Shown: positions 42,712 through 64,000 of the stretch, piece by piece
How the letters are laid out: every line of letters starts with the position of its first letter
Numbering within the stretch: the stretch's first letter is position 1
Source of the DNA: Chitinophaga sancti
GTDB lineage: Bacteria; Bacteroidota; Bacteroidia; Chitinophagales; Chitinophagaceae
DNA: 64,000 nt
Assembly (NCBI RefSeq): GCF_034087045.1
Contig: NZ_CP139247.1
Span: 4,614,001 to 4,678,000 of the forward strand
Reading direction: 5' to 3'
The notes under the pieces: model-generated
Seen by the model: the letters and a program-made list of their open reading frames with translations, nothing else
The model's database searches: none
Told to the model about the DNA's origin: nothing
Translations under genes and position numbers: made by a program

Positions 42712-42725
42712 GTGATGGATGTCAT
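42712..42725. promoter_or_regulatory. FixK/FNR-type dyad before BON gene
   Basis: GTGAT-GGAT-GTCAT fits TGA(T/C)-N4-(A/G)TCA with one G:A half-site difference. Its centre lies about 101 bases before the GTG start at 42820. Confidence 0.5.
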
Positions 42726-42819
42726 TATTCAGCATGATATTTCTTAATATTTGGGGGCCACACATATTTTAACTTTAATATGAAAGTTGGATATTCTTTA
42801 ACCCTAAAAAAAACGGATA

Positions 42820-43494
42820 GTGAGAAGTGATTATATATTGCAACAAAATGTCCTGGATGAATTTTTGTGGGAACCATCCCTGGAAGCTGCAGAAATAGGG
42901 GTGTCAGTTAAAAATGGAATTGTAACCTTAAGCGGTACAGTGGATAGTATTAGTAAAAAGAACTCAGCAGAACGTGCGGTGAAAAGAATTAAGGATGTTA
43001 AGGCCGTAGCAATGGCTATAGAAGTAGTTTATCCCAGCAATAGCAGGAAAACAGACGCTGAGATTGCAAAGGCTGCTCTAGATGCATTGGCATGGAATAG
43101 CCTGGTTCCAAAAGATCACATCCGCATCGAAGTAGAAAATGGATATATCACTTTGGAAGGGGAAGTGGAATGGCAATATCAGCGGAATGCTGCAAAAGAT
43201 GTTGTTAAAGACCTGCAGGGGGTGAAAGGCATTGCTAATTTGATTGTTGTAAAACCAATCCCATCTTCTTTCCTGGTAAAGAACAATATTTTGAACGCAT
43301 TGCACCGGATGGCAAATATTGACGCTCATAATATCCAGGTTTTAACCCTGGATAATACGATCATCCTCAATGGAACAGTGCGCTCCTGGCGGGAGCTGGA
43401 ACAGGTGGAACATGTAGTCTGGTCTACACCTGGAGTTTCAGCTGTTATCAATGACCTTGAAGTAGCGTATTATGAAACGGTTACTATCAGATAA
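42820..43494 (+). CDS. Three-BON-domain stress protein
   Basis: A 224-residue protein of three BON repeats (about 3-70, 78-145 and 150-218), each with the alpha-beta-beta pattern and a conserved Gly (VKNGIVTLSGTVDS; VENGYITLEGEVEWQ; LDNTIILNGTVRSW). BON domains bind membranes or hydrophobic ligands, as in OsmY. There is no signal peptide, so this copy is cytoplasmic. The GTG start at 42820 is supported by the paralogue at 59532-60182, whose MKTDYELQQDV aligns with MRSDYILQQNV. 115 bases upstream of a universal stress protein gene. Confidence 0.88.
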   Translation: MRSDYILQQNVLDEFLWEPSLEAAEIGVSVKNGIVTLSGTVDSISKKNSAERAVKRIKDVKAVAMAIEVVYPSNSRKTDAEIAKAALDALAWNSLVPKDHIRIEVENGYITLEGEVEWQYQRNAAKDVVKDLQGVKGIANLIVVKPIPSSFLVKNNILNALHRMANIDAHNIQVLTLDNTIILNGTVRSWRELEQVEHVVWSTPGVSAVINDLEVAYYETVTIR

Positions 43495-43609
43495 TGTCTA
43501 TTGTTTTCCGGCTGTTACCCTTTTTACTGCTCCTCCCGAAACTACAAATTTGCTTGCTGACTTTCCGGAAATGACGGGTTGTTAATTTTATACCTAAACT
43601 ATTTTAATC

Positions 43610-44416
43610 ATGAAAAAGGTATTGGCGATTTTTGATGGTGGACAATATTCTAATGGTGTGATGGAGCTGTCTCAGCATATAAATGACAACCAGCCCATCT
43701 TGTTGGTAGGGAGCTTTCTTCCCGGAATTGATTTTACAGGTATGTCTGAAATGTATGGTTTTGGTGCGCTGGATATTCCTGTTCATATACGGGCAGACGA
43801 AGAAGTAGTGGACCAGAATATTGAGCGCTTCACAAATTATTGTATACATCATCATATCGAGTACAGGGTACACAAAGACTTATCTTTGGATGCCTATCCT
43901 ATATTTAAGAAGGAGAGTAGATTTGCTGATCTTCTCTTGATTGGGTCGCAGGAGTTTTTAGGACAACTGGCATTGAACATACCTGCAGAAAATTTGCGTG
44001 ATGCCCTTCATGATACGGAATGCCCTGTAATAGTGGTGCCCGAATATAAAAACGAGCCTGAAAATATAGTACTGGCTTATGATGGTACTGCGTCATCTGT
44101 ATTTGCCATTAAAATGTTCTGTTATCTGTTCCCGGAATTATGTAAGAAACCTACGATTCTTTTGCATGTAAATAGTAATAGGTCTATGCCGTCTTCTTCT
44201 GCTATTCAGTTATTATTGCGTGCGCATTATCCCAACTTCCAGGAGCTTGTAATGGAAACGATGCCGCTTTTTGAAGATTACATAATGAAGGTTCCTTCTC
44301 CAATACTGATAACCGGTGGATTTGGCCGTTCCGGTATATCTTCTGCATTCAGATCCAGCTTTGCCAGCAAGGCAATGTCCTTATTCAGGTTCCCCATATT
44401 TATCGCCCATTTGTGA
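43610..44416 (+). CDS. Universal stress protein, tandem UspA type
   Basis: A 268-residue protein of two UspA-like halves (about 1-143 and 148-268). The first contains KVLAIFDGGQYSNGVMEL and ESRFADLLLIGSQEF, then DTECPVIVVPE; the second NIVLAYDGTASSVFAIKMF and ITGGFGRSGISSAF with a G-x-G-R-S phosphate-type motif. Closest in the window to the 60552 paralogue. Such proteins bind ATP or AMP and support survival under growth arrest. It is in the presumed low-oxygen stress island. Confidence 0.93.
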   Translation: MKKVLAIFDGGQYSNGVMELSQHINDNQPILLVGSFLPGIDFTGMSEMYGFGALDIPVHIRADEEVVDQNIERFTNYCIHHHIEYRVHKDLSLDAYPIFKKESRFADLLLIGSQEFLGQLALNIPAENLRDALHDTECPVIVVPEYKNEPENIVLAYDGTASSVFAIKMFCYLFPELCKKPTILLHVNSNRSMPSSSAIQLLLRAHYPNFQELVMETMPLFEDYIMKVPSPILITGGFGRSGISSAFRSSFASKAMSLFRFPIFIAHL

Positions 44417-44501
44417 GCCTTTACTTTGGGGCAAAGGGCATACTTCCTATTTAAAGATTTTGGGATATATTTTTCTTTTGATGAAACCCGGAAAAGTATA
44501 A

Positions 44502-44515
44502 TTGATTGTCATCAT
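44502..44515. promoter_or_regulatory. FixK/FNR-type dyad before desaturase
   Basis: TTGAT-TGTC-ATCAT, one base off the ideal TTGAT-N4-ATCAA, lies 115 bases before the desaturase ATG. A separate GGTCAG/CTGACC hairpin (44533-44552) lies between them. Confidence 0.6.
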
Positions 44516-44629
44516 TCATGTAATGTGATTTTGGTCAGTATTTTACCTGACCATTGTGATCGGAAGGGATTTGTACATTAGTTATCTTGAAAGCAATTGT
44601 AAACTCCCTCATCTTAGAAATCCCGTGAT

Positions 44630-45727
44630 ATGAAAACGATAAAGTATATAAGTAGCGACGCATGGGAAAAACAGTTTTCTTCGACTGTTAGAAGTAATGT
44701 AAACAGTTATTTTAAAGAAAAAGGTATTTCCACCAAAGGAAATTTTACATTGGTGACACAGACTATCGCCATGTTGTTTTTATATATCGCTCCATATGTG
44801 CTATTGCTGACCGTTTCAATAAATATTTGGATCTCATTATTGCTGGTGATCACCATGGGGGTAGGAATGGCAGGGATAGGTATGTGTGTAATGCATGATG
44901 CGGTACATGGTTCATTCTCTGAGAAGGAATGGATTAATAAAATAATGGGAGGTACCATGTATTTGCTGGGTAGCAATGTGTTTAACTGGAAAGTGCAGCA
45001 TAATATGATGCATCATGCATATACTAATATTGAAGGGTACGATGAAGATATCGCGAAAAAAGGTCCTATCAGACTTTCTCAATATTCCCCATTAAAGAGA
45101 ATTCATCGTTATCAGTACATTCATGCATTTTTCTTTTATGGACTTATGACTATCGCGAAATTGTTTAATGATTTTACGCAGCTTTCCAGGTACAACAAAG
45201 AAGGAATAACCGAAAAATTCCACATTAATCCGGTGAGAGAGTATATTAAGATGGTTATAGTAAAAGTCCTTTACCTGTTTATTTTTATTGGTGTTCCTAT
45301 CCTATTTACCGGATATACCTGGTGGCAGGTACTTCTTGGATTTTTTATAATGCACTGGACTGCGGGAGCCATACTTAGTACTGTTTTTCAAATGGCGCAT
45401 GTGGTTGAAGGTGCCCAGCAGTTCATCGCCGATGAGAATGGGATTATTCATCATGATTGGGCTGTTCATGAACTACGGACAACAGCGGATTTTGCAAGGA
45501 ACAATCTTTTTCTGAATTGGTATATTGGGGGATTGAATTTTCAAATCGAACATCATCTTTTTCCAAATATCAGTCATGTACATTACAGAAAGATAGCGCC
45601 AATCGTGGAGTGGACGGCCCATGAATTCAATTTATTTTACAATTTAAAACCATCTTTTTTTGCAGCGCTTCGTTCACATATCCACAGGCTTAAAAAATTG
45701 GGTATGGGGGAAGAGAAGATTGCGTAA
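44630..45727 (+). CDS. Fatty acid desaturase (acyl-CoA/acyl-lipid type)
   Basis: A 365-residue membrane di-iron enzyme that puts double bonds in acyl chains. Three His boxes: HDAVH (89-93), HNMMHH (124-129) and QIEHH (305-309), separated by two hydrophobic hairpins (about 40-85 and 205-250), the layout of front-end-like desaturases. No fused cytochrome b5. It needs O2, so control by a FixK-type site, if real, may serve adaptation of membranes at low oxygen. A truncated membrane gene follows 20 bases downstream. Confidence 0.92.
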   Translation: MKTIKYISSDAWEKQFSSTVRSNVNSYFKEKGISTKGNFTLVTQTIAMLFLYIAPYVLLLTVSINIWISLLLVITMGVGMAGIGMCVMHDAVHGSFSEKEWINKIMGGTMYLLGSNVFNWKVQHNMMHHAYTNIEGYDEDIAKKGPIRLSQYSPLKRIHRYQYIHAFFFYGLMTIAKLFNDFTQLSRYNKEGITEKFHINPVREYIKMVIVKVLYLFIFIGVPILFTGYTWWQVLLGFFIMHWTAGAILSTVFQMAHVVEGAQQFIADENGIIHHDWAVHELRTTADFARNNLFLNWYIGGLNFQIEHHLFPNISHVHYRKIAPIVEWTAHEFNLFYNLKPSFFAALRSHIHRLKKLGMGEEKIA

Positions 45728-45747
45728 TTAAAGATTTAACATGGCGG

Positions 45748-46098: not shown

Positions 46099-46175
46099 TT
46101 TCTTCGTCTTTATCTCTTTTTCCGGACGTAAACCAACAAGCATTTTAATTTGATAAATATCGATTAAAGTTGTTA

Positions 46176-47200: not shown

Positions 47201-48265
47201 ATGTCTACAATACTTGTAATTGACGATGATTTACCTGTCAGAGGCAATTTAGTTGAAATTCTTGAGTTGGCAGGGTATAATGTCATTGTCGCTGAAGATG
47301 GAAAAAAAGGTTTGTTAATGGCTGAGACCTGGCGTCCTGACCTGATCCTATGTGATTTGTCGGTTCCTATCCTGGATGGTTATGTTGTACTTCAGATGTT
47401 AAGCCGCAATGAGGCCTGTTGCAGAATTCCATTTATTTTTCTCACCTCAAGGACCGATCGGGCAGGTATCCGGATGGCAATGGATCTTGGGGCAGACGAT
47501 TGTATCACGAAGCCATTTAATCCTTCGGATTTGCTTAGTTCGATTGAATGTCGGTTACGAAAAGTCACGAGCAGAAGATTGCCGCAAATAGGCGATATGA
47601 AAAAAATGATGCTGATAATCGGCAATTCTACGGATAGAAGCGAAGTTACGTTACAGGAATTTGTCAAAGACCGTAACGTAAAGTTTTTTAAAAAGAAACA
47701 GGTTATTTATCGCGAAGGAAATTATCCCTCCTGTTTTTATTATATCCTGAAAGGAATGGTAAAAATATATGTTTTTGATGAGGACGGGAAAGAGTTAATA
47801 ACAGAACTATGTGTTGAGGGAGATTTTTTAGGGTTTACGGCTTTATTATATCAACAGCGATATACAGACAATGCAGAGACGATTGGAGAGGTGCAACTTG
47901 CTATAATTCCATACGATGATTTTCAGGAACTACTTGGGGTGGATAATAATTTCAGGAATCAAATTATTAAGTTACTTGCACACGATATTGAAGAAAAGGA
48001 ACAACATTTACTTAAATCGGCTTATGATTCGCTGCGTAAGAAAACGGCAGATGCATTACTTACAGTTTTTAATAAAAATATTCAATCAGGCCAGGTTGAT
48101 GCAGGTATAAAATTTTCCCGGAGTAATCTCGCTGCACTTGCAGGGGTAGCCAAGGAATCGTTGGCCAGAACTTTAGCAGAATTCAGGGATGAGCATCTAA
48201 TTGATATCCGGAGCGGCACCATTTATATCCTTGATATGGGTAAGATCACCAAGATGTGTAAATGA
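47201..48265 (+). CDS. Receiver-Crp/Fnr fusion response regulator
   Basis: A 354-residue transcription factor joining a response-regulator receiver (1-120; acidic pair Asp8-Asp9, phospho-acceptor Asp52, Lys in ITKPFNPS) to a Crp/Fnr module: cyclic-nucleotide-like beta roll (about 155-270; YILKGMVKIYVFDEDGKEL) and HTH (about 295-345). The recognition helix VAKESLARTLAEFR keeps Glu319 and Arg323, which in FNR contact the TGA half-site, while FNR's Ser is Ala322. No FNR-like cysteine cluster exists, so oxygen sensing through Fe-S is unlikely; phosphorylation by a kinase is expected. A paralogue is at 53961. Confidence 0.93.
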   Translation: MSTILVIDDDLPVRGNLVEILELAGYNVIVAEDGKKGLLMAETWRPDLILCDLSVPILDGYVVLQMLSRNEACCRIPFIFLTSRTDRAGIRMAMDLGADDCITKPFNPSDLLSSIECRLRKVTSRRLPQIGDMKKMMLIIGNSTDRSEVTLQEFVKDRNVKFFKKKQVIYREGNYPSCFYYILKGMVKIYVFDEDGKELITELCVEGDFLGFTALLYQQRYTDNAETIGEVQLAIIPYDDFQELLGVDNNFRNQIIKLLAHDIEEKEQHLLKSAYDSLRKKTADALLTVFNKNIQSGQVDAGIKFSRSNLAALAGVAKESLARTLAEFRDEHLIDIRSGTIYILDMGKITKMCK

Positions 48266-48284: not shown

Positions 48285-48298
48285 ATGATGAATATCAT
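48285..48298. promoter_or_regulatory. FixK/FNR-type dyad before a USP gene
   Basis: ATGAT-GAAT-ATCAT, a perfect 5-4-5 dyad matching TGAT-N4-ATCA, in the 189-base space between a receiver-Crp gene and the USP at 48455. Confidence 0.65.
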
Positions 48299-48454: not shown

Positions 48455-49279
48455 ATGAACAAAATAATAGCTGTCTTTGATGGCTTCAATTTTTCAGATA
48501 TTTTATTACAAAAGGTTATAAGTATTGCCCTTATTAATAACTGCATGATCAGTGGAATTTATCTGGAAGATCTTAATAATAAAATCCCTCAAATATCAGC
48601 GGACCATTCTCAGAATAATTTTTGCGGGAAAGTTTTTGTAAACGATTCTGATGATCGGGCATCGGCTTTGAGCCGATTTGAAAAGGCCTGTACAACTGCC
48701 GGCATCCATTTTAAAGTGCACCGTGACAGTGACGTTGCGATACATGAACTTTTGTCCGAAAGCAGATATGCAGATCTTCTAATAATTGCAGGTAGTTGTG
48801 AATTTTCCCGTAACAAAGAAAGCTTAACTCCTCATTACCTAAAGAATCTTTTTTACCGGGCAGAATGTCCGGTATTGCTTGTGCCCGGAAAATTACACGT
48901 AATTGAAGGTGTCTCCTGGTTATATGATGGATCGCCAGGTTGCTTGCAGGCGCTTAAAATGCTGGGATATTTATTGCCTTTTTTCCATAGGCTGCCTCTT
49001 GAGGTATTGATATATGGGGCTTTCCCAGCTGGCAATAATTTACCCTGTTGTCATTTCATTGAGGAACTTTACATAGATCATGCATCAGATGTTACTTTTC
49101 GGAATTTTATAGGTCATTCCTCTTCGAAATTATTTTCTTATTTGCGCGGGCATTTTGGCCGGAATTTGTTGTTGTCATGGGCCAGCAGGCCCTTGGATGT
49201 AGTATCCGAAATCAATAATGGAATGGCTGGGCAGCTGTTGGTAAATACAGAGTGGCCATTGCTAATAGTCAAGCAATAA
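48455..49279 (+). CDS. Universal stress protein, tandem UspA type
   Basis: A 274-residue two-domain USP. N-terminal half KIIAVFDGFNFSDILLQKV to ESRYADLLIIAGSCEF and RAECPVLLVPG; second half begins VSWLYDGSPGCLQALKML. The second half lacks the G-x-G-R-S loop of the 43610 copy (it reads LLSWASRPLD), so nucleotide binding may be lost there. It follows a receiver-Crp gene by 189 bases with a FixK-type dyad in between, and is followed by a similar USP at 49414. Confidence 0.9.
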   Translation: MNKIIAVFDGFNFSDILLQKVISIALINNCMISGIYLEDLNNKIPQISADHSQNNFCGKVFVNDSDDRASALSRFEKACTTAGIHFKVHRDSDVAIHELLSESRYADLLIIAGSCEFSRNKESLTPHYLKNLFYRAECPVLLVPGKLHVIEGVSWLYDGSPGCLQALKMLGYLLPFFHRLPLEVLIYGAFPAGNNLPCCHFIEELYIDHASDVTFRNFIGHSSSKLFSYLRGHFGRNLLLSWASRPLDVVSEINNGMAGQLLVNTEWPLLIVKQ

Positions 49280-49413: not shown

Positions 49414-50253
49414 ATGAAAAAGTTATTAGCCATTTTTAACGGACTGAAATTTTCGGAAAGTACCCTGCAATATGCAGTAAAGTTAGGTGTGCAGCATGAT
49501 ATGGCTGTTACAGGGATCTTTATTGAAGATTTTATTTACACCGGTCAGGGTATATTCCGGTCATATAGTGAGGAACAGCCTACAACAGAAGGTGGCTGGG
49601 AATTGCTGCGTAAGGATAAGTTATTACGTGAAATTACTGTAGAAAAATTTGAAACGGCCTGTTTGCATGCGGGCGTAAAATACCTGGTGTATCGTGATAA
49701 ACTGACAGCTGTTTCTGACCTTTTAAAAGAAAGCAAATATGCTGATTTACTTATTATAGATGCCAGTGAAACCATGAATCTGTTTTGGGAAGATTCGCCT
49801 ACACGGTTTGTCAGGGAAATCCTTTCAAGAGCAAATTGCCCCATATTATTAGTCCCCAAAAAATTTATTGATATAAAAAGCATTTATTGGCTTTATGATT
49901 CATCGCCTGTATCCATTTATGCTTTCAAGATGTTTTGCTATATATTCCCTTTATTGAGTATCCTGCCATTTAAAGTATTAGCAGTACAGGTTGCTGAAGA
50001 CAGGAAGTTGATCACTTTTAGTCCAATGGTGAGAGAATTAATACAACTTCATGTGCCCCACGCAGAGTTCATTACGTTATATGGGCAACCAGAGTTGGAA
50101 ATTCCTTTATTTATCAGGAAACAGGAACCGGAATTATTAATTATACTAGGTGCTTATCAGCGAAACGCTTTTTCAATGTTTTTCAGGACTAGTATGGCTG
50201 ATGTTTTGACAAAGGAAGAGCAATGGCCGATGTTTATCGCTCATAATAAATGA
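49414..50253 (+). CDS. Universal stress protein, tandem UspA type
   Basis: A 279-residue two-domain USP: KKLLAIFNGLKFSESTLQYAV, ESKYADLLIIDASETM and RANCPILLVPKKF in the first half; SIYWLYDSSPVSIYAFKMF and LLIILGAYQRNAFSMFF in the second, ending MFIAHNK like the 60552 copy. More like the 48455 copy than like the 43610/60552 pair, which suggests a local tandem duplication. 134 bases separate it from the preceding USP; no clear dyad is there. Confidence 0.9.
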   Translation: MKKLLAIFNGLKFSESTLQYAVKLGVQHDMAVTGIFIEDFIYTGQGIFRSYSEEQPTTEGGWELLRKDKLLREITVEKFETACLHAGVKYLVYRDKLTAVSDLLKESKYADLLIIDASETMNLFWEDSPTRFVREILSRANCPILLVPKKFIDIKSIYWLYDSSPVSIYAFKMFCYIFPLLSILPFKVLAVQVAEDRKLITFSPMVRELIQLHVPHAEFITLYGQPELEIPLFIRKQEPELLIILGAYQRNAFSMFFRTSMADVLTKEEQWPMFIAHNK

Positions 50254-52670: not shown

Positions 52671-52931
52671 AAATGTGAGGTATTTTTTTACACTGGCTTG
52701 TCTTGGAGGAAAAAAAGCAATAGATATTACGAATGATTTCTTGTTAATTGAAATACAATCTTTTATATGTGTTAAAGACGAGCGATTCGCGCAAATCCTC
52801 TCTTTGCCGCTAAAGTAGAATTTTTTTTATGATTTTCATCCGGATGATGAAATATTATCATTTCTTCCTATGACCAATGTTAATGTTATTCGCAAAGAAT
52901 CAGCTTAACTTATGATAATAAACACAGGTAT

Positions 52932-55134: not shown

Positions 55135-56178
55135 TTAAAATTCATTGCTAATAATGACTTTCAGCGCATTTTCTTTTGCAGCATTGCCGAATGTGGTATA
55201 TGCAGTTTCTATTTCAGAAAATTTAAACCGGTGTGTTATAAATATCCCCGGATCCATTTTCCTGCTCGTAACTATTTTTAATAGCATTGGCGTGGTATAG
55301 GTATCTACCAGCCGGGTCGTAATAGTGATATTCTTTGACCATAAATTTTCCAGTGCCAGGGATACGGACTTACCATGTACCCCTATATTGGCAATTTTTC
55401 CGCCGGGCCGTATGATTTGTGTGCACAATTCAAATGTAGCTGGAATGCCCACAGCTTCCATGGCTGTATCCACCCCTTCATATTCAGTAAGGGCCATAAT
55501 AGCGTCAACTGCATTTTCCTGGCTATTGTTAATCGCATGGGTAGCGCCCATCTTTTTAGCTACCTCCAGCCGGTTGCTATCCGGGTCAATCATAATGATA
55601 GCGGCGGGAGAAAAGAACTGCGCTGTGGTAAGTGCTGCCAGACCTATTGGGCCTGCACCCACTATTGCCACAGTTGTACCTGGTTGTACCTGCCCGTTCA
55701 GTACCCCGCATTCGTAACCCGTAGGCAGGATATCACTCAACATGACCAGGGATTCTTCATTTGTGCTTTCGGGGATATGGTACAGGCTTGTATCAGCGTA
55801 AGGTATTCTCACATATTCTGCCTGTGTCCCATCTATCAGGTGTCCCAATATCCAGCCGCCATTCTGACAATGGGAATACATACTTTTCCGGCAATATTCA
55901 CACTTGCCACAGGATGTAATACAGGAGATCAATACATGGTCCCCTTTTTTGAAATTGCTGACATTGCTCCCTGTTTCTTCCACAATTCCTATCCCTTCAT
56001 GTCCAAGTATGGTACCATATGCGACTTCCTTGACATCTCCTTTCAATATATGGAGATCTGTACCGCAGATGGTTGTCTTTATTACCTTCACTATAGCATC
56101 TGTTGATGCAATCAATCCAGGTTTTTCTTTTTCCTCAAGGGCTACCTGGCCGGGGCCCTTGTAAACGAGTGCTTTCAT
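55135..56178 (-). CDS. Zinc-dependent alcohol dehydrogenase family protein
   Basis: A 347-residue medium-chain dehydrogenase. Catalytic zinc ligands in TTICGTDLH and GHEGIG; structural zinc site CGKCEYCRKSMYSHC; Rossmann motif VAIVGAGPIGLAAL and ESLVMLSDILPTGYECG. The GTDLHILKG start and short form fit the isopropanol/threonine dehydrogenase-like group. It would regenerate NAD(P)+ or detoxify aldehydes when respiration is limited. Last gene of a four-gene run (site-2 protease fusion, deacetylase, receiver, ADH) with spacings of 2, 22 and 11 bases. Confidence 0.92.
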   Translation of the reverse strand: MKALVYKGPGQVALEEKEKPGLIASTDAIVKVIKTTICGTDLHILKGDVKEVAYGTILGHEGIGIVEETGSNVSNFKKGDHVLISCITSCGKCEYCRKSMYSHCQNGGWILGHLIDGTQAEYVRIPYADTSLYHIPESTNEESLVMLSDILPTGYECGVLNGQVQPGTTVAIVGAGPIGLAALTTAQFFSPAAIIMIDPDSNRLEVAKKMGATHAINNSQENAVDAIMALTEYEGVDTAMEAVGIPATFELCTQIIRPGGKIANIGVHGKSVSLALENLWSKNITITTRLVDTYTTPMLLKIVTSRKMDPGIFITHRFKFSEIETAYTTFGNAAKENALKVIISNEF

Positions 56179-56189: not shown

Positions 56190-56594
56190 TTATATGATAT
56201 ATCCCAGCATATTGGAAGCTAGCTGGAAATATTCTGAGTAATTATAAGGTTTCTCGTAATAGTTAGTTGCACCATTGCTGATGCATTCGTTCCGTGTGGT
56301 ATAGTCTGTGGCGGTGCTCCAAATGATTTTAGGTATTCCTGTCAAAAGATGACTTTCATTCAGCTTTTTTAATACCTCAGCACCCGAATAAAAAGGCATA
56401 TTGTAATCAAGAATGATGAGTGATGGTTTGTCCGGACAGTTATCCATATCTACACGGTTCATGAAATCTCTTCCATTTTCAAATACCTCCATCATAATAC
56501 CGGGATTTATCTGGTGAATAGCAGCTCTCAGAATTTCCTGGTCGTCTGAATCATCATCGATCAGGAAAACAACTTTGTTGGCTTCTTTTTCCAT
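56190..56594 (-). CDS. Single-domain response regulator
   Basis: A 134-residue receiver with no output domain. Acidic pocket Asp13-Asp15, phospho-acceptor Asp63 in SLIILDYNMPFYSG, Thr in IIWSTATDYT and Lys in NYYEKPYNYSEY. It could be a phosphate relay or sink for the PAS kinase at 51531, or a protein-interaction switch as in CheY-like regulators. It lies between the deacetylase and the dehydrogenase in one operon. Confidence 0.9.
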   Translation of the reverse strand: MEKEANKVVFLIDDDSDDQEILRAAIHQINPGIMMEVFENGRDFMNRVDMDNCPDKPSLIILDYNMPFYSGAEVLKKLNESHLLTGIPKIIWSTATDYTTRNECISNGATNYYEKPYNYSEYFQLASNMLGYII

Positions 56595-56616: not shown

Positions 56617-57330
56617 TTAAAATGCTTTATCTATTGTTTCTTTCAATTGGTCTGTAGTCCATTTACCGGATACCATAATACGCCTGACAGTGAAGTTGGG
56701 ATCTGTTGATTGCTGATGATTGTCCAGCTGGAAGGCGCCGATATAATCAGCTTGTTTCAGGTCTTTAATAGCCTGTTCATTCCACGCGCCATATGGGAAG
56801 GCAAAATAGCAGACAGATGTGCCTGATATTTTTTCTAAATATGCTTTGGGTTTTAACATTTGCTCCTTTACACTATAGGAGGGATGTAATGCCAGGTTAG
56901 TATGATCCCATGTATGACAGGCGATAATATGCCCCTGCTCCGCCATCTTCCTGACCTCGTTGGTGGTTAGCCATCCGGTTTTATTCAGGCAGACGGTCAT
57001 AATGAAAAATACGCCCCTGAAATGAAATTTGTTCAATACCGGTACCGCCACACTGTAATGTGTTTCATGGCTGTCGTCAAAGGTGATCATGATTGGTTTT
57101 GACGGCAGGGGAGCGCCTCCGTTCGTGTGGGCATATAATTCGTCGGGTGTAATGGCAGTATATCCATTATTATACAGGAATTGCATCTGCTGCTGAAAAT
57201 GCTTTTCACTGATATGTAAAAGGTCTTCTTTACCACTATCAGTATTATTGATATTATGATAACAAAGGATAGGTACCTGCTGGTATTGCAGGCAGTATGA
57301 TAATAGCATATATAATATCGTGTAACCCAT
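56617..57330 (-). CDS. Polysaccharide deacetylase (NodB-like)
   Basis: A 237-residue metal-dependent de-N-acetylase. The catalytic and metal motif is ITFDDSHE, the metal His pair HTWDHTNL, and the PYGAWNEQAIKDL motif completes the NodB domain (about 70-235). A hydrophobic start (MGYTILYMLLSYCLQYQQ) is a probable signal, so it acts in the periplasm or outside on peptidoglycan or polysaccharide. It starts 2 bases after the protease-fusion stop, so both are translated together. Substrate unknown. Confidence 0.9.
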   Translation of the reverse strand: MGYTILYMLLSYCLQYQQVPILCYHNINNTDSGKEDLLHISEKHFQQQMQFLYNNGYTAITPDELYAHTNGGAPLPSKPIMITFDDSHETHYSVAVPVLNKFHFRGVFFIMTVCLNKTGWLTTNEVRKMAEQGHIIACHTWDHTNLALHPSYSVKEQMLKPKAYLEKISGTSVCYFAFPYGAWNEQAIKDLKQADYIGAFQLDNHQQSTDPNFTVRRIMVSGKWTTDQLKETIDKAF

Positions 57331-57332
57331 GT

Positions 57333-59369
57333 TTATTGATATTGAATGTAAACAGGTGTTGGATATAACCTGAGGATTTCCTCCGGCTGCATGATGGTCT
57401 TCCGGACGGGTGTAATATCATTTTTGTAAAACAGCTTAAAACCTGTATACTGAACTGGTTCTTTCGCTACGAAATATTTATAGGAATCCTTCTTCTTTGC
57501 AGGAAAACCAAATCCATCCATATTGATGACTATCTGTACCTGTTCACAGGTATGTATTTCCCTGTAATTGGTAATCATACCTTGTGTGAACCGGTGTATA
57601 ACCAGTATTTTAGGTGGGAGATGGTATTTCAGTACGAGTGTTTTCAGGTAATCGCAGGCGAAATTTATATCTGCTGCGTCGAAGGAGCCAATTTCTGAAC
57701 AGGGTACGGCATTGTTCTTCATGGAATATTCAGGATCTATTCCCAGGTGAACATCCGGAAGCTGCAGGTATTTTTCCAGTGTAACCAGCTCTTCCTGCAG
57801 GGAGCTATGGCCTACCTGCACATCCAGTATGGTGATGGCATTTATCTCTCTCGCCATTTTTATAATACTGTCTATTTGTTGTCCAGGCATCCGTAGACGG
57901 TACTTTTTATATTTCCCTGGGTTTCTTTGTGCTGTAATCGCAATGTAATGCAGGGCTGGTTGTACGCGAAACAGCGGATCTGCAAGCTCCCATTTTTTTG
58001 CTTCAGCGAGTAACTGAGCTTTCATTTTATCCGGCGGTAATTCTCCCAATATTCCCATCTTCGCAGAGTACAGGTTGCCATAGAATGCAACAATCCTTTT
58101 GTAAGGAAGTATTGCACCCGGCAGGGGAGCGGTAGGGATATACTTCCAGGCCAGGGTAGGCGTGTCATGCAATAATCTCATGGCATGCTGATAGTAACCT
58201 GTAGTATCGGAACGACCATTTTGCTGTACTGAAAACAGTGAAAGCAGCAATGGAAATGTCCAGGCAAGCGCATATGGCTTTTTATGTTTTTCCGTGGCAT
58301 GGTTAAGTACCGAACTGAGGATGTTATCCCTGCTGACCACCCCGATCAATTTATTGTTGGAAGTAGTAACCGGCAATATCAGATCCGCTTTGGATGGTAG
58401 CTGATTCCAGATTTCAATTAATTTACTGTCCGCCTTCACAGCAGACAGATCAGGTATGACGAGATCCTGCAGGGCTATTTCTTTGCTGTTGATCAGTAGC
58501 TTGTATAATAATGTTTCTTTGTCCAGTATGCCGATGATTTTTCCATTGTCGGTCAGAACATAGTACCGGTCATTGCCCGTGCCAAGGGTATGAAGGATCT
58601 CTTCCGGGGTTGCCCTTACGTTTATGGTTTTAAAATCCCTGGATATAACATCATTTACACTTTCGTCCTTTAGGAGAAATGAGATCAGGTAGTTATCTTT
58701 TTCAATGCCTGAGAATAATAGTAAGAAACAACCATATAGAATGAGTAGCAGGTTCCCGGTCAGTAATCCGGCGATTGTCATAATCAGGCTGATAACCCTG
58801 CTTATGAAATGCGAAGTTCTGAACGCTGTATAAGGCGTAAAGCGAAGTCCCAGTAATCCTTTTAACATTTTGCCCCCGTCAAGGGGCAATGCGGGAAGCA
58901 GGTTGATAATTGCCAGCGTAATATTGATGTTATACAGGAAATGGGGAAAGTTGGCGCTATGAATACTTGTTATAATCGTGCCCAATTTCCAGAAAGGTGT
59001 GCCCGCTGGCAGAAATGGTATCAATAAGGTTGCAATTGTGATATTAACCAAAGGTCCTGCCATGCTCACTATTATTTCCTGACGCGGATTTCCTGGCTGG
59101 CCGGAAAAAATTGTGATGCCACCAAAGGGAAGCAACTGGATCTTTTTGATAGGGATGTTGTAGTGAAAAGCAGCAAAGGTATGTCCCAGTTCATGCAATA
59201 ATACACATACAAATACAGCCAAGATTTCGCCGATCGTCAGTAATACTATGCTGGCGGATTCCCTGGCTACTACATGCATGAGTAATACCCAGCATATCAA
59301 TAACAGAAATGTCCAATGTAATTCAATCGGAATTCCTCTGATGAGAAATATTTTAAGTGAATTTTTCAT
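57333..59369 (-). CDS. Site-2 protease/CBS protein fused to an exported domain
   Basis: A 678-residue fusion. Residues 1-230 are an SpoIVFB-like site-2 protease with metal motif HELGH (His59, Glu60, His63) and LPLDGGKM (Asp164) in membrane segments. CBS repeats occupy about 243-353. At about 365-383 a hydrophobic stretch (YALAWTFPLLLSLFSVQ) looks like a signal peptide, followed by a 290-residue domain with PLPGAILPYKRIVAFYGNLY, HLGIDPEYSM and LVIHRFTQGMITN, resembling an uncharacterised secreted TIM-barrel-like family. The start at 59369 fits relatives (MKNSLKIFLIRGIPIELHW); an earlier ATG at 59435 is unlikely. First gene of a four-gene operon. Confidence 0.88.
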   Translation of the reverse strand: MKNSLKIFLIRGIPIELHWTFLLLICWVLLMHVVARESASIVLLTIGEILAVFVCVLLHELGHTFAAFHYNIPIKKIQLLPFGGITIFSGQPGNPRQEIIVSMAGPLVNITIATLLIPFLPAGTPFWKLGTIITSIHSANFPHFLYNINITLAIINLLPALPLDGGKMLKGLLGLRFTPYTAFRTSHFISRVISLIMTIAGLLTGNLLLILYGCFLLLFSGIEKDNYLISFLLKDESVNDVISRDFKTINVRATPEEILHTLGTGNDRYYVLTDNGKIIGILDKETLLYKLLINSKEIALQDLVIPDLSAVKADSKLIEIWNQLPSKADLILPVTTSNNKLIGVVSRDNILSSVLNHATEKHKKPYALAWTFPLLLSLFSVQQNGRSDTTGYYQHAMRLLHDTPTLAWKYIPTAPLPGAILPYKRIVAFYGNLYSAKMGILGELPPDKMKAQLLAEAKKWELADPLFRVQPALHYIAITAQRNPGKYKKYRLRMPGQQIDSIIKMAREINAITILDVQVGHSSLQEELVTLEKYLQLPDVHLGIDPEYSMKNNAVPCSEIGSFDAADINFACDYLKTLVLKYHLPPKILVIHRFTQGMITNYREIHTCEQVQIVINMDGFGFPAKKKDSYKYFVAKEPVQYTGFKLFYKNDITPVRKTIMQPEEILRLYPTPVYIQYQ

Positions 59370-59440
59370 ACGGAACTTTTTATCCTCATTGTTAAGGAAT
59401 CGAATTCGTGCATTGCCCGGATCATTAAAGCCCATTGTTG

Positions 59441-59531: not shown

Positions 59532-60182
59532 TTATGAAATAGTAAGTTCATCATGAACAGCTGTAACACCCGGTGTTGACCACACTGCTCTTTCTACCTC
59601 CGCCCTTTCAAGCCATGAATGTACATTACCCGTCAGTTTGATATCGCTGCCTGTAGTCATTACATTTATTTTGTCTGCTTCCAGGTTGGCGATCCGCTGC
59701 AGGGCTTTCCGTATATTGTTATTAATAATTTTGCTGCCTGGTCTGGGTTTTACGTGAATAAGGTTTGTAATCCCTTTTATTCCCTGAAGATCTTTTATCG
59801 CACTCGTTACGGAATCTTTCTGATATTGCCATTCCACTTCTCCTTCCACAGATATATATCCGTTTTCTACCTGTAGCATCAATTTTTCGTCTGGAATGAT
59901 ATTGGACCATTTCAGCGCATTGAACGCAGCTTTTGCTATTTCGGCGTCTGTTCTGAGATGTTTTCCCGGCAAAATAATGTCAATATTTACAGCTACTGCT
60001 ATTACTTCTTTCACTCTTTTGGCTGCACTTTCTGCTGCTATTTTTTTGCTGAAATTATCAACGATCCCTGTCAGCGTCACCACACCATCCTTTACAATAA
60101 CGCCTATTTCAGGTGCGTTGAGTATAGGATCCCACATCAGTTCATCCTGCACATCCTGTTGTAATTCATAATCTGTCTTCAT
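59532..60182 (-). CDS. Three-BON-domain stress protein
   Basis: A 216-residue paralogue of the 42820 protein with the same three BON repeats (VKDGVVTLTGIVDN, VENGYISVEGEVEWQ, TTGSDIKLTGNVHSW) and the same VWSTPGVTAVHDEL end. No signal peptide. ATG 60182 gives MKTDYELQQDVQDELMW, which matches the GTG-initiated start of the paralogue; an upstream in-frame start to 60242 is not supported. It is divergent from the USP at 60552, with a 369-base shared region. Confidence 0.9.
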   Translation of the reverse strand: MKTDYELQQDVQDELMWDPILNAPEIGVIVKDGVVTLTGIVDNFSKKIAAESAAKRVKEVIAVAVNIDIILPGKHLRTDAEIAKAAFNALKWSNIIPDEKLMLQVENGYISVEGEVEWQYQKDSVTSAIKDLQGIKGITNLIHVKPRPGSKIINNNIRKALQRIANLEADKINVMTTGSDIKLTGNVHSWLERAEVERAVWSTPGVTAVHDELTIS

Positions 60183-60469
60183 GATTAAAATTTTTGAGGT
60201 AAATAATTGGGATTTGATAGTGATTGTGAAGAAAGATAGCAATTACGGTTACTACCTTTCTTTCACTGTTCATTTTATCGGTTATGAAAAAAGCACAATG
60301 TTGCCTGCATTGAAGGATCGTAACAAATTAAAGAATCTGCAATCGTAACCGTGGAATATATTTGTATTCGAGCTGAAAGGTAGTTCCTTAACCCTATTGA
60401 AATCAATGATTTTTGTCACTTTTTTCGTTGACCTTTCAACTATCTCCTCCATAAATGTCAAAATTCGGT

Positions 60470-60483
60470 ATGATCAGTATCAT
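60470..60483. promoter_or_regulatory. FixK/FNR-type dyad between BON and USP genes
   Basis: ATGAT-CAGT-ATCAT, a perfect 5-4-5 dyad, lies in the 369-base divergent region (60183-60551), 69 bases before the USP ATG. TATGTTGT at 60512-60519 could be the -7 element, putting the dyad near -48. The rest of the region shows no gene. Confidence 0.65.
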
Positions 60484-60551
60484 TTTTATTGGGGTGGGTT
60501 CTTGCGAATTTTATGTTGTTCCCCTAATTATCCCCTGTTAATTCAAAAGCC

Positions 60552-61373
60552 ATGAGAAAAGTTGTTCTTGCCTTTGATGGTACTCATTATTCAAATGGAG
60601 CATATGAATTGGTAAAGAAGATAGATGAAAGTGAAAAGATACTACTGATCGGAGTATTTTTACCTGGATTACGTTTCATACCACCTAACTATATTTTAGG
60701 CGGAGAGGGCATATATGTACCATCCCAGGTTGAAATCGATGAAGGTAAAGTGGATGAATTGATTGAAAGGTTTGAGGATGACTGTACCAGGAATAGTATA
60801 GAATTTCGCGTACATAAAGACCTATCTCCCTATTCAATACAAAAGCTGGAGAAGGAAAGTAGGTTCGCGGATCTGATGGTTATTGGGAGTCAGCCCTTTT
60901 ATGAAAATCTTCAGGGGGATTTGGCAGATGAGTTTTTCCGGGATATCCTTCATGATTCAGAATGCCCGGTAATAGTCGCTCCAGAAGAATTTAATTATCC
61001 CGATCATGTAATTCTGGCTTATGACGGCTCCAGGTCATCTGTTTTTGCAATTAAGATGTTTGCCTATTTATTCCCCGACCTAAGTAAGGGGAATAACACG
61101 TTGGTATATGCTACCCAAAAACACCATAATGCCCTGCCTGATGAAGATTATATTAAAGAATTGGCAGCCCGGCATTACCCTGATCTTACGCTTCAGGAGC
61201 TGGAGCTGCATAAATTGGATTATTTCCATACCTGGCTGGAAGATATTCCAAACCCGATTCTTGTAACAGGTGCATTTGGCCGTTCAGGATTTTCTGAAAT
61301 TTTTAAGAGAAGTTTTTGTACCAGTGAAATTTATAAAAACAGTTATCCTGTTTTTATCGCGCATAATAAATAG
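60552..61373 (+). CDS. Universal stress protein, tandem UspA type
   Basis: A 273-residue two-domain USP, close to the 43610 copy: KVVLAFDGTHYSNGAYEL, ESRFADLMVIGSQPF, DSECPVIVAPE, then HVILAYDGSRSSVFAIKMF and VTGAFGRSGFSEIFKRS with a phosphate-type G-x-F-G-R-S loop, ending VFIAHNK. First gene of a tight operon with L,D-transpeptidase (3 bases on) and pfkB, then hsp20, under a FixK-type dyad. Confidence 0.93.
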   Translation: MRKVVLAFDGTHYSNGAYELVKKIDESEKILLIGVFLPGLRFIPPNYILGGEGIYVPSQVEIDEGKVDELIERFEDDCTRNSIEFRVHKDLSPYSIQKLEKESRFADLMVIGSQPFYENLQGDLADEFFRDILHDSECPVIVAPEEFNYPDHVILAYDGSRSSVFAIKMFAYLFPDLSKGNNTLVYATQKHHNALPDEDYIKELAARHYPDLTLQELELHKLDYFHTWLEDIPNPILVTGAFGRSGFSEIFKRSFCTSEIYKNSYPVFIAHNK

Positions 61374-61376
61374 GAT

Positions 61377-62804
61377 ATGAAATACGGTTTTTTGACTATA
61401 TTATTTTTATCATTTGGCATATTGACCGCCAGTAGCCAGCATATAGGCTGGCTAACGGATACCGTAAACCTGCGCAGGCTTTGCTACTTTTTCTCACAGG
61501 CTTCGCTGTCAGGCCTAAATGAAAAAGACTATGCTTATAATACGGTGCAGCAGCTTACTGCCGGGATGAAAAATGTAGATACGGCCAGTATTGAAAAAGA
61601 ATTGACAAATGCTGCAATTAGTTATTTTTCTGATATCGTGTATGGTGGCCAGGAAGTGCGCGTGCCTTATAATGGAATTAACTATTATCCCTCCTGTTTG
61701 AATATCCGGGACAGTCTATTGACTGCTATTGCAGAAGACCGGTTTGCGACACTACCAGAAATGTTGGAGCCGCACAGTACGATGTATAGAGAGCTGAAAA
61801 AAAAGATTGCCGTACTGGAAAATCGTAAAATTAATAAATTCCCCCCAGTCATCAGTGATAAGCTTGATACCACCAATCACCCCCTTATCGAAAGATTATT
61901 TCAACTGGGTATTACAGATACCCTTGACTATACCATTCACGAAGATACCCTCAGGAATAAACTAAGGTTAGCACAAGGAATGTTTGAAATGCTGGAAGAT
62001 GGTACAATCCGTCCTGGTATACTGGAGGAATTGAATATACCTATAGAAAAGCGGTTGTACGAACTAAAGCATGCTTTAAATACGTTTCGGTGGCTGGATT
62101 GTATTCAAGAGGAACAGCCTGTGATCATCGTTAATATTCCGGCGGCAAATCTTATTTATTTATCTAAAGATTCAGTCCTGTTCTACACGCGATGTATTGT
62201 GGGCAAACCCGCTACGCCTACCACACCAATGGCCAGCAGCATACATGAGGTAATATTATTCCCATATTGGAATGTACCGCATAGCATCGCCGCAAATGAA
62301 TTATTACCTGCTATTCAATCTGCACCACTTGACTACCTGGACTACGGTAATTACCAGGTGCTGGACAAAGCCGGCAGGGTATTAGATCCGTCCACCATCA
62401 AATGGCAGCAGCTGAACAGCAGGAATTTTCCATACACATTACGGCAGCTGTTTGGATGTGACAATGCGCTGGGCATCATCAAACTCAATTTTTTTAGCCC
62501 TTACAGCACCTATCTGCATGATACGCCCAATAAAAGCTACTTCATGTTCAACAGCCGGTATTTCAGTCATGGGTGTATCCGGGTAGAAGATGTAGATTCC
62601 CTGGCAGAAATGCTGGAACCGGCATTACATCCGTTCCTTGCCAATGCTGCCACCAGGGTATGTGAATTAGCTACTGACAGCGGACAGCTGATCTTCCCCC
62701 TGAAACATAAAATTCCACTATTTATTCTATATGAAGTAGCCTGGCCAGATGGAAAAGGGAAAGTCTGTTTTTATGACGACGTATACAATAAAATAAAACT
62801 TTAA
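61377..62804 (+). CDS. L,D-transpeptidase (YkuD domain, YcbB-like)
   Basis: A 475-residue exported enzyme that makes 3-3 peptidoglycan crosslinks or attaches proteins. Signal peptide about 1-21 (MKYGFLTILFLSFGILTASS), an N-terminal scaffold (about 30-220) and a YkuD domain from about 255, with LHDTPNKSYFMFNSRYFSHG followed by CIRVEDVDSLAEM containing the catalytic Cys. The family is used for wall remodelling in non-growing cells, as in mycobacterial dormancy. It begins 3 bases after the USP stop, an unusual pairing. Confidence 0.9.
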   Translation: MKYGFLTILFLSFGILTASSQHIGWLTDTVNLRRLCYFFSQASLSGLNEKDYAYNTVQQLTAGMKNVDTASIEKELTNAAISYFSDIVYGGQEVRVPYNGINYYPSCLNIRDSLLTAIAEDRFATLPEMLEPHSTMYRELKKKIAVLENRKINKFPPVISDKLDTTNHPLIERLFQLGITDTLDYTIHEDTLRNKLRLAQGMFEMLEDGTIRPGILEELNIPIEKRLYELKHALNTFRWLDCIQEEQPVIIVNIPAANLIYLSKDSVLFYTRCIVGKPATPTTPMASSIHEVILFPYWNVPHSIAANELLPAIQSAPLDYLDYGNYQVLDKAGRVLDPSTIKWQQLNSRNFPYTLRQLFGCDNALGIIKLNFFSPYSTYLHDTPNKSYFMFNSRYFSHGCIRVEDVDSLAEMLEPALHPFLANAATRVCELATDSGQLIFPLKHKIPLFILYEVAWPDGKGKVCFYDDVYNKIKL

Positions 62805-62814
62805 ACCCAGTGTT

Positions 62815-63768
62815 ATGAATCGTATCATCACCTTCACTTTTAATCCGGCAATTGACAAAAGTACCACTATTAACCACCTGGTACCTGAAAAGAAACTGGC
62901 CTGTTCACCGCCTGTATTTGAGCCGGGTGGGGGAGGCGTAAATATTGCGAGGGCTATCAGGAACCTGGGTGGCCATGCTACCGCCGTTTATCTTTCCGGT
63001 GGGTATACCGGCCGTTTTTTTTCTTCTTTGATCGAAAAGGAACACCTGGATGCTATCAATGTTACCATCAGTGGCAAAACAAGGGAGAACCTCGTGGTAA
63101 TGGATGTGTCTACTAATCAGCAATACCGCTTCGGTATGCCAGGACCCACTGTCAGTGAAAAAGAATGGCAGCCCTGTCTTGAAATAATAGGTAAATGTGC
63201 AGCAGATGATTTTATCGTGGTAAGCGGTAGTTTGCCTCCCGGCATGCCGCCTGAAGTAATGGGAGAGATTGCCGGCATAGTTAAAAAAAGGAGAGCAAAA
63301 TTAATAGTAGATATATCAGGTGAGGCGCTGGTAAGTGCGCTGAAAGAAGGCGTATATCTTATCAAACCCAATCTCAACGAACTGGGATTGTTAATAGGCA
63401 ATTCTCGCCTTACAGAACAGGATGTGTATATGGCTTCCAGGCAAATCATTAACAGAGGCCAGAGCGCGGCTGTAGTGGTATCATTGGGTGCTGCCGGTGC
63501 TATACTGGTTACAAAAGATGAGCAGGTCATGATTCCTGCTCCGCTCGTGAAATCAGTGAGTACCGTAGGGGCTGGCGATGCAATGCTTGCAGGTATTGTA
63601 TATAAACTTTCAAAAGGTGCGGGATTTTTAGGCGCTGTACGGTATGGCATTGCCTGCGGAACGGCAGCCACACTGCACCCCGGAACGGCTTTGTGCCAGC
63701 CGGAAGATGTAGAGAAATTATTTCAGCAGGTATTGAACAATGCTACGGTGACCATGGCTGCATGGTGA
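62815..63768 (+). CDS. pfkB: 6-phosphofructokinase II, PfkB family
   Basis: A 317-residue ribokinase-fold kinase phosphorylating fructose 6-phosphate (or a related sugar phosphate). It follows E. coli PfkB closely: FNPAIDKST, PVFEPGGGGVNIARAI, VVSGSLPPGMPPE, KPNLNEL and the catalytic GAGDAMLAGI near the end. Ten bases after the L,D-transpeptidase stop. A USP-PfkB-Hsp20 combination is also a core of the mycobacterial DosR regulon (Rv2028c-Rv2031c), which suggests a shared survival programme; that is a parallel, not homology of the locus. Confidence 0.92.
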   Translation: MNRIITFTFNPAIDKSTTINHLVPEKKLACSPPVFEPGGGGVNIARAIRNLGGHATAVYLSGGYTGRFFSSLIEKEHLDAINVTISGKTRENLVVMDVSTNQQYRFGMPGPTVSEKEWQPCLEIIGKCAADDFIVVSGSLPPGMPPEVMGEIAGIVKKRRAKLIVDISGEALVSALKEGVYLIKPNLNELGLLIGNSRLTEQDVYMASRQIINRGQSAAVVVSLGAAGAILVTKDEQVMIPAPLVKSVSTVGAGDAMLAGIVYKLSKGAGFLGAVRYGIACGTAATLHPGTALCQPEDVEKLFQQVLNNATVTMAAW

Positions 63769-63770
63769 TG

Positions 63771-63836
63771 GAAATCACTATTTTTCGTACTTCGGATCAT
63801 TGTTTCCAGTGCCAGACAAGATGTAATTTCATATCG
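63771..63836 (+). promoter_or_regulatory. Duplicated hsp20 upstream region, copy 2
   Basis: Gap-free match to 1-66 (51 of 66 identical by eye), starting 2 bases after the pfkB stop. Copy 2 lies 24 bases farther from its hsp20 start than copy 1. Its presence suggests hsp20 has its own promoter as well as read-through from pfkB. Confidence 0.55.
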
Positions 63837-63910
63837 TAAACGACCCTGAAAATTTAGAAACTATAATAATCCCAATATTCTTCACAATTTTTAAAAATAA
63901 GGAGGTAACT

Positions 63911-64000
63911 ATGTCTAAAGAATTAACTAAGGCAACTTCCATCCTGCCATCCGTATTCGATGATTATTTTAAACCCTGGAAGGATTTCTTTGATTTTAAT
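63911..64000 (+). CDS. hsp20: Small heat shock protein Hsp20, cut by window end
   Basis: Only 30 residues are inside the window: MSKELTKATSILPSVFDDYF then KPWKDFFDFN. They match the start of the hsp20 at 117 closely (MSKELTKAAPVVPAVFNEYI, KPWIDFFDFN). AAGGAGGT at 63899-63906 is the ribosome-binding site, at the same spacing. The gene follows pfkB by 142 bases. It is a clear recent duplicate of the gene at the left end. Confidence 0.9.
   Translation, partial: MSKELTKATSILPSVFDDYFKPWKDFFDFN

Follow-up and report, generated by a model that had tools for sequence, protein, structure and literature searches.

Receiver-Crp fusions and FixL-like kinases as a candidate phosphorylation-gated FNR system of the Bacteroidia, with a stress-protein island in Chitinophaga sancti

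In the genome of Chitinophaga sancti, genes for universal stress proteins (USPs), BON-domain proteins and a small heat-shock protein lie close to a soluble PAS histidine kinase and to proteins in which a receiver is fused to a Crp-type DNA reader, and the locus raises the question of what controls these genes and in answer to which signal. It was studied in a window of 64,000 nucleotides (NCBI RefSeq assembly GCF_034087045.1, contig NZ_CP139247.1, positions 4,614,001 to 4,678,000 of a genome of 8.32 Mb on a single contig, whose nearest named proteins are those of Chitinophaga, with 84% to Chitinophaga sp. LS1), in the interval 42712-64000; all coordinates are in window numbering unless given as genome positions, and gene identities were assigned by Pfam. 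An initial annotation of this DNA had proposed a FixL/FixJ-FixK-like circuit. The explanation that we consider probable is a receiver-gated activator of the FNR/FixK type, driven by FixL-like kinases, with the island as its target set. A soluble kinase with a PAS domain of the FixL/DosP type would phosphorylate the receiver of the receiver-Crp fusion, the phosphorylated dimer would bind TGAT-N4-ATCA dyads, and the bound fusion would activate the genes for USPs, BON proteins, Hsp20, YkuD, PfkB and related proteins. The fusion would thus be a FixJ-like receiver joined to a FixK/FNR-like reader, the receiver replacing the cysteine end of FNR, and in some Chitinophaga paralogous fusions would have left the canonical operon and been amplified inside the stress-protein island.

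The pair of kinase and fusion was found well beyond this genome. A sample of 198 genomes of the phylum contained 49 of the same class (presumably Bacteroidia in GTDB terms) or closer and 149 others; the fusion (E <=1e-60) was present in 32, all of them among the 49 and none among the 149. The core idea of the initial annotation holds on a broader scale than could be seen from a single window. Named loci with the fusion (29 of 80, the other 51 matching mainly in the receiver part) include Chitinophaga, Flavihumibacter, Sediminibacterium, Flaviramulus, Jiulongibacter and Algibacter. An operon survey covered 58 loci (28 named, 29 further and the canonical locus of C. sancti itself; the sets may share species), of which 57 were resolved. 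In 50 of the 57 the gene immediately before the fusion encodes a PAS kinase, a count from which the three island fusions are excluded. The phospho-residues of the receiver are kept (in 19 sequences D9 and D52 never vary, and K104 and T82 hardly do), the H-box His is present in 50 of 50 operon kinases, and with these residues and the operon pairing the two proteins have the marks of the two-component pair that had been proposed. In 25 of the 50 operons a dyad lies in the stretch from 400 bp before the kinase gene to 60 bp into it, compared with 2 of 50 for the reversed pattern; seven of the kinase loci have less than 150 bp of upstream DNA. An unbiased palindrome scan upstream of the kinases put TGAT-N4-ATCA first, in 14 of 50 loci against 0.6 expected from shuffles. 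Of the four full-length fusions that C. sancti encodes, the island holds three. The fourth, at genome position 4056804, is canonical, with a PAS kinase directly before it and two dyads in front.

The initial annotation had counted four FixK-type dyads upstream of genes. The dyads proved real and the number was corrected to seven exact matches to TGAY-N4-RTCA in the interval, every one of the form TGAT-N4-RTCA. They are given here with a one-mismatch form.

42713..42724, plus strand: dyad TGATGGATGTCA, upstream of a BON-USP pair; a dyad also stands before the orthologous pair in the genome G211
44503..44514, plus strand: dyad TGATTGTCATCA, upstream of the desaturase gene; exact pattern match
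44526..44537, plus strand: dyad TGATTTTGGTCA, 23 bp past the dyad at 44503; exact pattern match
48286..48297, plus strand: dyad TGATGAATATCA, between fusion 1 and the following USP; exact pattern match
52871..52882, plus strand: one-mismatch dyad TGACCAATGTTA, in the divergent region between the kinase and PNPOx genes
60407..60418, plus strand: dyad TGATTTTTGTCA, in the BON/USP divergent promoter; 12 of 12 bases the same in the locus L005
60471..60482, plus strand: dyad TGATCAGTATCA, in the BON/USP divergent promoter; 12 of 12 bases the same in L005
63766..63777, plus strand: dyad TGATGGAAATCA, upstream of Hsp20-USP-USP-PpsA; overlaps the PfkB stop codon and was left out of intergenic counts for this reason

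Enrichment was measured against 53 stretches of 20 kb taken at regular places in the genome (1.06 Mb, 758 open reading frames of at least 100 amino acids, 127.8 kb of intergenic DNA). The island, which extends beyond the window, has 11 intergenic dyads in 7.1 kb where 0.50 were expected from the 9 in the control, an enrichment of about 22-fold (Poisson p 8e-12, an optimistic value, as the island borders were set after the dyads had been seen and two of the 11 dyads, at 83375 and 83381, overlap at the right border). The reversed pattern is absent from the intergenic DNA of the island, and the part of the island inside the window alone has 6 intergenic dyads against 0.26 expected. When all palindromes of 4 and 5 bases with spacers of 0-12 were scanned without bias, TGAT-N4-ATCA came out on top in the island, with 6 intergenic copies against 0 in the control (uncorrected p 4e-9; the control was 13 of the stretches and the sequence to the left and right of the island). 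The genome-wide enrichment for which the initial annotation had suggested a scan was not seen: the 53 sampled stretches have 9 intergenic dyads and 9 of the reversed pattern. A whole-genome count of 757 dyads against 455 was set aside as evidence, 81 of 90 sampled dyads being intragenic. CRP-type sites (TGTGA-N6-TCACA, up to two mismatches) showed no enrichment (29 against 30.8). The enrichment is local and confined to positions before specific genes.

The same dyads were followed into related islands. Three dyads could be compared in [Flexibacter] sp. ATCC 35208, where all keep 8 of 8 half-site bases; two are identical and one has 2 of its 4 spacer bases changed. The dyad at 63766 keeps its half-sites with a changed spacer in L005 and in three further Chitinophaga genomes (G211, G228 and G247). 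In the islands of these three, a dyad stands before the Hsp20 operon, before the USP4-YkuD unit and before USP7 in every case (3 of 3 each), and before the inositol monophosphatase (IMPase) gene and fusion 3 in G211 and G247. A dyad follows the homologue of fusion 1 in G247 and G228, preceding a USP in G228 only. The kinase/PNPOx intergenic region of G211 holds a full dyad, TGACCAATATCA; in the window this region has the one-mismatch form. In total, the island stretches of G211, G228 and G247 have 11, 8 and 11 intergenic dyads, compared with 0, 1 and 1 of the reversed pattern. USP4 itself is reduced to residues 10-40 in L005 (6119-6205) and in G211 (L295:8797-8883); the dyads persist there and now lie ahead of YkuD.

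Promoter geometry was assessed with 308 oriented intergenic dyads, in which divergent ones were counted for both genes and related genomes were included. The sequence TAnnTTTG, which we take to be the Bacteroidota promoter element, occurred in its strict form 107 times downstream of them, 37 times at exactly 29 bp from the dyad centre and 34 times at exactly 51 bp, with 36 scattered. On the opposite strand, with a relaxed element, no single offset was used by more than 5 of 79. Neighbouring dyads were spaced by 22 bp 28 times, the next commonest spacing being 23 bp, seen 4 times. If the TA lies near -12, the centre of the proximal dyad would fall near -41.5, the class-II place of FNR. The fixed distance between dyad and promoter element in relatives bears on whether the island dyads could be no more than chance palindromes in AT-rich intergenic DNA. 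The equal genome-wide counts of dyads and reversed pattern would agree with such an origin; the local enrichment, the presence of dyads before orthologous genes in relatives, some with changed spacers, and the fixed spacing speak so strongly in the other direction that it is extremely improbable and was rejected.

Genes preceded by dyads were then counted in 28 loci with 451 open reading frames. Among genes with an upstream gap of their own, a dyad was present before 13 of 15 USP genes and 5 of 7 Hsp20 or BON genes, compared with 86 of 242 other genes (Fisher p 4e-5; 3 of the 11 USP seeds came from dyad-preceded genes), and the reversed pattern before 2 of 264. Together with the dyads of the island and of its relatives, these counts support real dyads before USP, BON and Hsp20 genes. 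Ten of 106 dyad-preceded genes, selected by eye, were assigned with NCBIfam: two CcoNO, HemN, two RIC (below cut-off), a heavy-metal P-type ATPase (called CcoI-like from its gene position), a USP, FtsH, a Mg-type ATPase and a ligase-like protein. Genes for cbb3 oxidase, the CcoI-like ATPase, HemN or RIC are often found near the pair, which in most cases forms a two-gene operon of kinase and fusion. Mere co-occurrence of fusion and ccoN was uninformative (ccoN in 28 of 32 genomes with the fusion and 14 of 17 without) and only proximity informs: of the 28 genomes having both, 10 have them no more than 15 kb apart (0.21 expected) and 13 no more than 40 kb apart, and 10 carry them on different contigs. 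Because of these neighbours, low oxygen or a linked redox state is the most likely signal for the kinase. Of the low-oxygen circuit in the initial annotation, the link to low-oxygen respiration is supported; oxygen as the signal itself, a role in dormancy and phosphorylation of the island fusions by the island's own kinase are inferences.

The PAS domain of the window kinase was compared with 17 solved sequences and matched best the PAS domain of a multi-sensor kinase (10jx), followed by FixL and DosP. His67 aligns with the heme ligand of FixL, and of the 50 operon kinases, 43 have His in the corresponding column, 1 has a different residue and 6 have a gap (43 of 44 filled positions); the column ranks third by conservation among 115 PAS columns. 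The description of the kinase as FixL-like is supported to this extent, with heme binding as a prediction.

Several findings weigh against the preferred explanation, some of them in the kinase. The heme-type His is also found in 114 of 114 other similar kinases; it is non-diagnostic, and a FixL-type His as proof of heme was rejected. The equivalent of FixL R220 is Ala87 in the window kinase, and Arg in 28 of the 46 operon kinases with this column filled. At position +4 of the H-box, the island kinase has Ile170 and not Thr. The residue at this position of HisKA serves phosphatase activity. All 50 operon kinases and all 114 others have Thr there, whereas the six island-type kinases (that of the window and its five nearest orthologues) all have Ile or Leu; because Thr is replaced by Ile, the island kinase is predicted to be phosphatase-poor. 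No kinase is directly upstream of any of the three island fusions. The strict promoter element is at 29 or 51 bp in 0 of the 15 oriented island dyads, and in only 2 of 8 dyads at three further genomic sites. TAnnTTTG as a consensus element of the island dyads was rejected, none being at the expected spacing, and the island promoters would differ from the others or be weaker. The longer operator form is also lacking: of the FNR/FixK operator TTGAT-N4-ATCAA only the core TGAT-N4-RTCA was found, an exact 14-base TTGAY-N4-RTCAA is absent from the window, and its one-mismatch form is not enriched (16 against 12.8 expected). Upstream of ccoN, dyads are about equally frequent with the fusion (25 of 26 genomes) and without it (12 of 14). 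The operator thus shows no specificity for the fusion, and fusion-specific cco dyads were rejected. Finally, C. sancti itself encodes an FNR-like protein of 236 amino acids, directly before its ccoI-like gene.

The findings on the kinase leave room for a signal other than oxygen, such as nitric oxide, redox, flavin or energy state, with USPs, Hsp20 and BON proteins as a general stationary-phase response. The PAS His is common in this type of PAS domain, and USPs and Hsp20 answer many stresses. Since the cbb3, CcoI-like, HemN and RIC neighbours point to low oxygen or nitrosative stress, we regard this possibility as doubtful, though worth keeping in view.

The last two findings concern the protein that reads the dyads. 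In the ccoN survey (40 of 42 same-class ccoN genomes, about 4.5 kb upstream, two stretches being shorter at a contig end), 37 of 40 genomes had intergenic dyads, most of them immediately in front of ccoN or of the ccoI-like gene, and 1 of 40 had the reversed pattern. A stand-alone FNR-like protein with N-terminal cysteines adjoins the ccoI-like gene in many of these genomes. In C. sancti it is encoded at L095:9191-9910 (genome 1149199-1149906) with dyads just after the gene, and the ccoN-upstream stretch has three dyads outside it. FNR and FixK recognize their site through the residues E-xx-S-R. The reading helices of the fusions (KES.AR; TESMIR) and of the FNR-like protein have the Glu and the Arg in common; the Ser is replaced by Ala or Ile in the fusions, and by Ile in the FNR-like protein too. 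It could be argued that this protein, which has Cys 2, 10, 13 and 27 in its N-terminal part, reads the dyads and that the fusions are passengers or readers of other sites, the island being an ordinary FNR regulon. The dyads between its gene and the ccoI-like gene, here and in many relatives, and their persistence in genomes without a fusion would be in line with that. However, a search of the 198 genomes with the FNR-like query (E <=1e-18) gave the fusion as sole match in eight (G002, G037, G045, G053, G122, G158, G162 and G186; more distant Crp-type proteins may exist in them), all with dyads before ccoN. Moreover, the kinase-fusion operon has dyads in front of it, the islands themselves contain fusions, and the fusions retain an intact receiver and an FNR-like reading helix. 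An FNR regulon in which the fusions take no part is therefore unlikely.

As the genome also has this cysteine-bearing protein beside its cbb3 genes, the fusions as sole readers of the dyads are unsupported. The sequences compared make it probable that the fusion and the FNR-like protein serve as alternative readers of a single operator, and C. sancti has both. They might share it under different conditions, the FNR-like protein responding through an Fe-S cluster and the fusion through its kinase, at different oxygen levels or to different signals; we see the chances of this as evenly poised. Such sharing contains the receiver-gated activator and does not exclude it, being its likeliest form where a genome holds both regulators, as here. 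The same dyad is found upstream of ccoN with either regulator, and the three of the 49 same-class genomes that match neither regulator are all without ccoN; four others with the fusion also lack ccoN, which does not fit as well. A precedent is known from Rhizobium leguminosarum, where the oxygen inputs of hFixL-FxkR-FixK and of FnrN converge on the cbb3 genes (PMC7888657). There, too, a kinase and an FNR provide two oxygen inputs; FxkR induces the expression of fixK, whereas here the receiver is part of the reader.

With the receiver-gated activator as a basis, a class-wide reading can be put forward, for which the balance tips slightly in favour. The fusion and its FixL-like kinase would form a phosphorylation-gated FNR of the Bacteroidia, an alternative reader of the FNR operator that replaces Fe-S FNR in some lineages and shares its operator in others. 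In some Chitinophaga it would have been amplified into a stress-survival island, with a kinase that lacks the phosphatase Thr and is maybe locked as a kinase. Each of the 60 genomes examined in the genus has at least one fusion, and the island type (fusion 2 with at least 75% identity) was found in 4 of the 60. In a quick tree of 67 rows, a selection made of the four C. sancti fusions, 44 database proteins and 19 loci, the three island fusions fall inside one 30-row group with an SH-aLRT (Shimodaira-Hasegawa-type approximate likelihood-ratio test) value of 100, the named members of which are Chitinophaga. The kinase-linked fusion of the same genome is outside this group. Because of this separation, the island is best regarded as a class-wide system amplified in one lineage.

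Compared with known systems, the arrangement combines parts of several. It shares with rhizobial FixL-FixJ-FixK the PAS kinase with the FixL heme-ligand His, the receiver step, the dyad of FNR/FixK type and, in relatives, neighbours of the cbb3 (fixNOQP), FixI/CcoI and HemN types. It differs in that the receiver is fused to the Crp/FNR reader, with a Crp-type output instead of the LuxR type of FixJ and without a separate FixK; the targets here are USP, BON and Hsp20 genes, and the island kinase has no Arg equivalent to R220. All three island fusions exceed the Pfam cut-offs for cNMP_binding and HTH_Crp_2, which places them in the CRP/FNR superfamily. With FNR, ANR and FnrN they share the cNMP-type roll and HTH_Crp, the Glu and Arg of the reading helix, the TGAT-N4-ATCA core operator and, in relatives, a spacing that would fit class II. 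In contrast to FNR, the fusions are without an N-terminal cysteine cluster, and a phospho-receiver is at the N-terminus in its place. In the DosS/DosT-DosR regulon of mycobacteria, a two-component system with heme sensors likewise controls USPs, a PfkB-type kinase and a small heat-shock protein. The output of DosR is of the NarL/LuxR type and its operator is a different one, and its sensors use GAF heme; here the output is of the Crp type and the kinase has a PAS domain and no GAF match in Pfam.

Published work offers a few points of contact. Burkholderia cenocepacia induces an FNR-type regulator in micro-oxia, together with USPs and small heat-shock proteins (PMC3759415), and oxygen limitation induces cbb3 oxidase and heme-synthesis enzymes in Flavobacterium psychrophilum (PMC9723704, no regulator being named in the part available). 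CRP/FNR homologues of Flavobacteriales and Saprospiraceae were assigned to carbon sensing (PMC8510549; the word "receiver" is absent from the main text), and the accessible part of PMC4999443 has nothing on regulation in this phylum. Little was found in the literature searched on oxygen control of genes in aerobic Bacteroidota, and the claim that the circuit had not been described in the phylum agrees with the PMC literature searched, in which no description was recognised (subscription journals and preprints being outside the search). Regulator, kinase, operator and promoter geometry are now given in concrete form and open to direct test, the fusion being present in 32 of the 49 same-class genomes sampled. 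The findings suggest that the oxygen-sensing end of FNR may be exchanged for a two-component input with the operator kept, and would tie USP, BON and Hsp20 survival genes to a circuit often found near genes of high-affinity respiration.

The genes of the interval are as follows.

42820..43494, plus strand: BON-domain protein with 3 BON repeats (Pfam)
43610..44416, plus strand: USP, tandem type, intact (Pfam below cut-off, end-to-end alignment)
44630..45727, plus strand: fatty acid desaturase (Pfam)
47201..48265, plus strand: receiver-cNMP-HTH_Crp fusion 1 (Pfam, homologue comparison)
48455..49279, plus strand: USP, intact (end-to-end alignment; no Pfam Usp match)
49414..50253, plus strand: USP, intact (end-to-end alignment)
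50885..51475, plus strand: truncated USP, a remnant covering only profile positions 54-191 of 272
51531..52670, minus strand: soluble PAS-HisKA-HATPase histidine kinase without a hydrophobic stretch (Pfam)
52932..53393, plus strand: PNPOx-like flavoprotein (Pfam)
53415..53855, plus strand: membrane protein of 146 amino acids (no Pfam match)
53961..55007, plus strand: receiver-cNMP-HTH_Crp fusion 2 (Pfam)
55135..56178, minus strand: zinc alcohol dehydrogenase (Pfam)
56190..56594, minus strand: single-domain receiver (Pfam)
56617..57330, minus strand: polysaccharide deacetylase (Pfam)
57333..59435, minus strand: M50 site-2-type protease with a CBS pair (Pfam)
59532..60242, minus strand: BON-domain protein (Pfam)
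60552..61373, plus strand: USP, intact (Pfam below cut-off, end-to-end alignment)
61377..62804, plus strand: L,D-transpeptidase, YkuD (Pfam)
62815..63768, plus strand: PfkB-family sugar kinase (Pfam)
63911..64000, plus strand: Hsp20, first 30 codons in the window (gene runs to 64345, domain beyond the window)

Most of the gene calls of the initial annotation agree with this list, namely the two BON proteins, desaturase, PNPOx-like protein, alcohol dehydrogenase, YkuD and PfkB as well as the soluble PAS kinase and the two receiver-Crp fusions. Five intact USPs had been called, of which four are intact (43610, 48455, 49414 and 60552) and the fifth (50885-51475) is truncated. Three of the four score under the Pfam Usp cut-off, and the USP at 48455 and the remnant at 50885 have no match; a USP just beyond the window passes it (27.7 against 24 bits). 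The eight full-length USPs of the island align end to end, the profile having been built from these same eight. The Hsp20 gene is present as stated, with its domain outside the window. The 21-kb cluster is real and does not stop at 64000: the island continues for about 19 kb and ends at about 83.4 kb. This further part encodes Hsp20, another four USPs, phosphoenolpyruvate synthase, an alcohol dehydrogenase, two BON proteins, IMPase, the third receiver-Crp fusion and a class I ribonucleotide reductase, and it adds 5 intergenic dyads.

Some minor features were also observed. A C-terminal fragment of a lysylphosphatidylglycerol synthase-type membrane protein lies at 45748-46098, and no clear gene is present in the next 1.1 kb or so. 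The ribonucleotide reductase genes (80504-83204, L091) are downstream of fusion 3 and two USPs; after them, about 50 bp before a gene that by eye is LysR-like, are two overlapping dyads which may serve that gene. Proteins of about 120-135 amino acids, alike by eye, are encoded beside kinase-fusion operons or a USP remnant with a dyad near each (L012:6732, L022:7018, L018:8262, L008:11184 and L122:2214) and have no Pfam match. Others of about 135-140 amino acids, again alike by eye, are divergent from the kinase and share its dyad in Flavobacteriaceae (L024:8187, L026:8189 and L027:7596). Pfam gave no match for two of these three; in all, 7 of 10 proteins submitted, small ones encoded beside kinase operons or a USP remnant, received no family. 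Over the left edge of the window and outside the island, a divergent USP/Hsp20 pair (L120, genome 4612979-4614515) has a shared promoter with two dyads.

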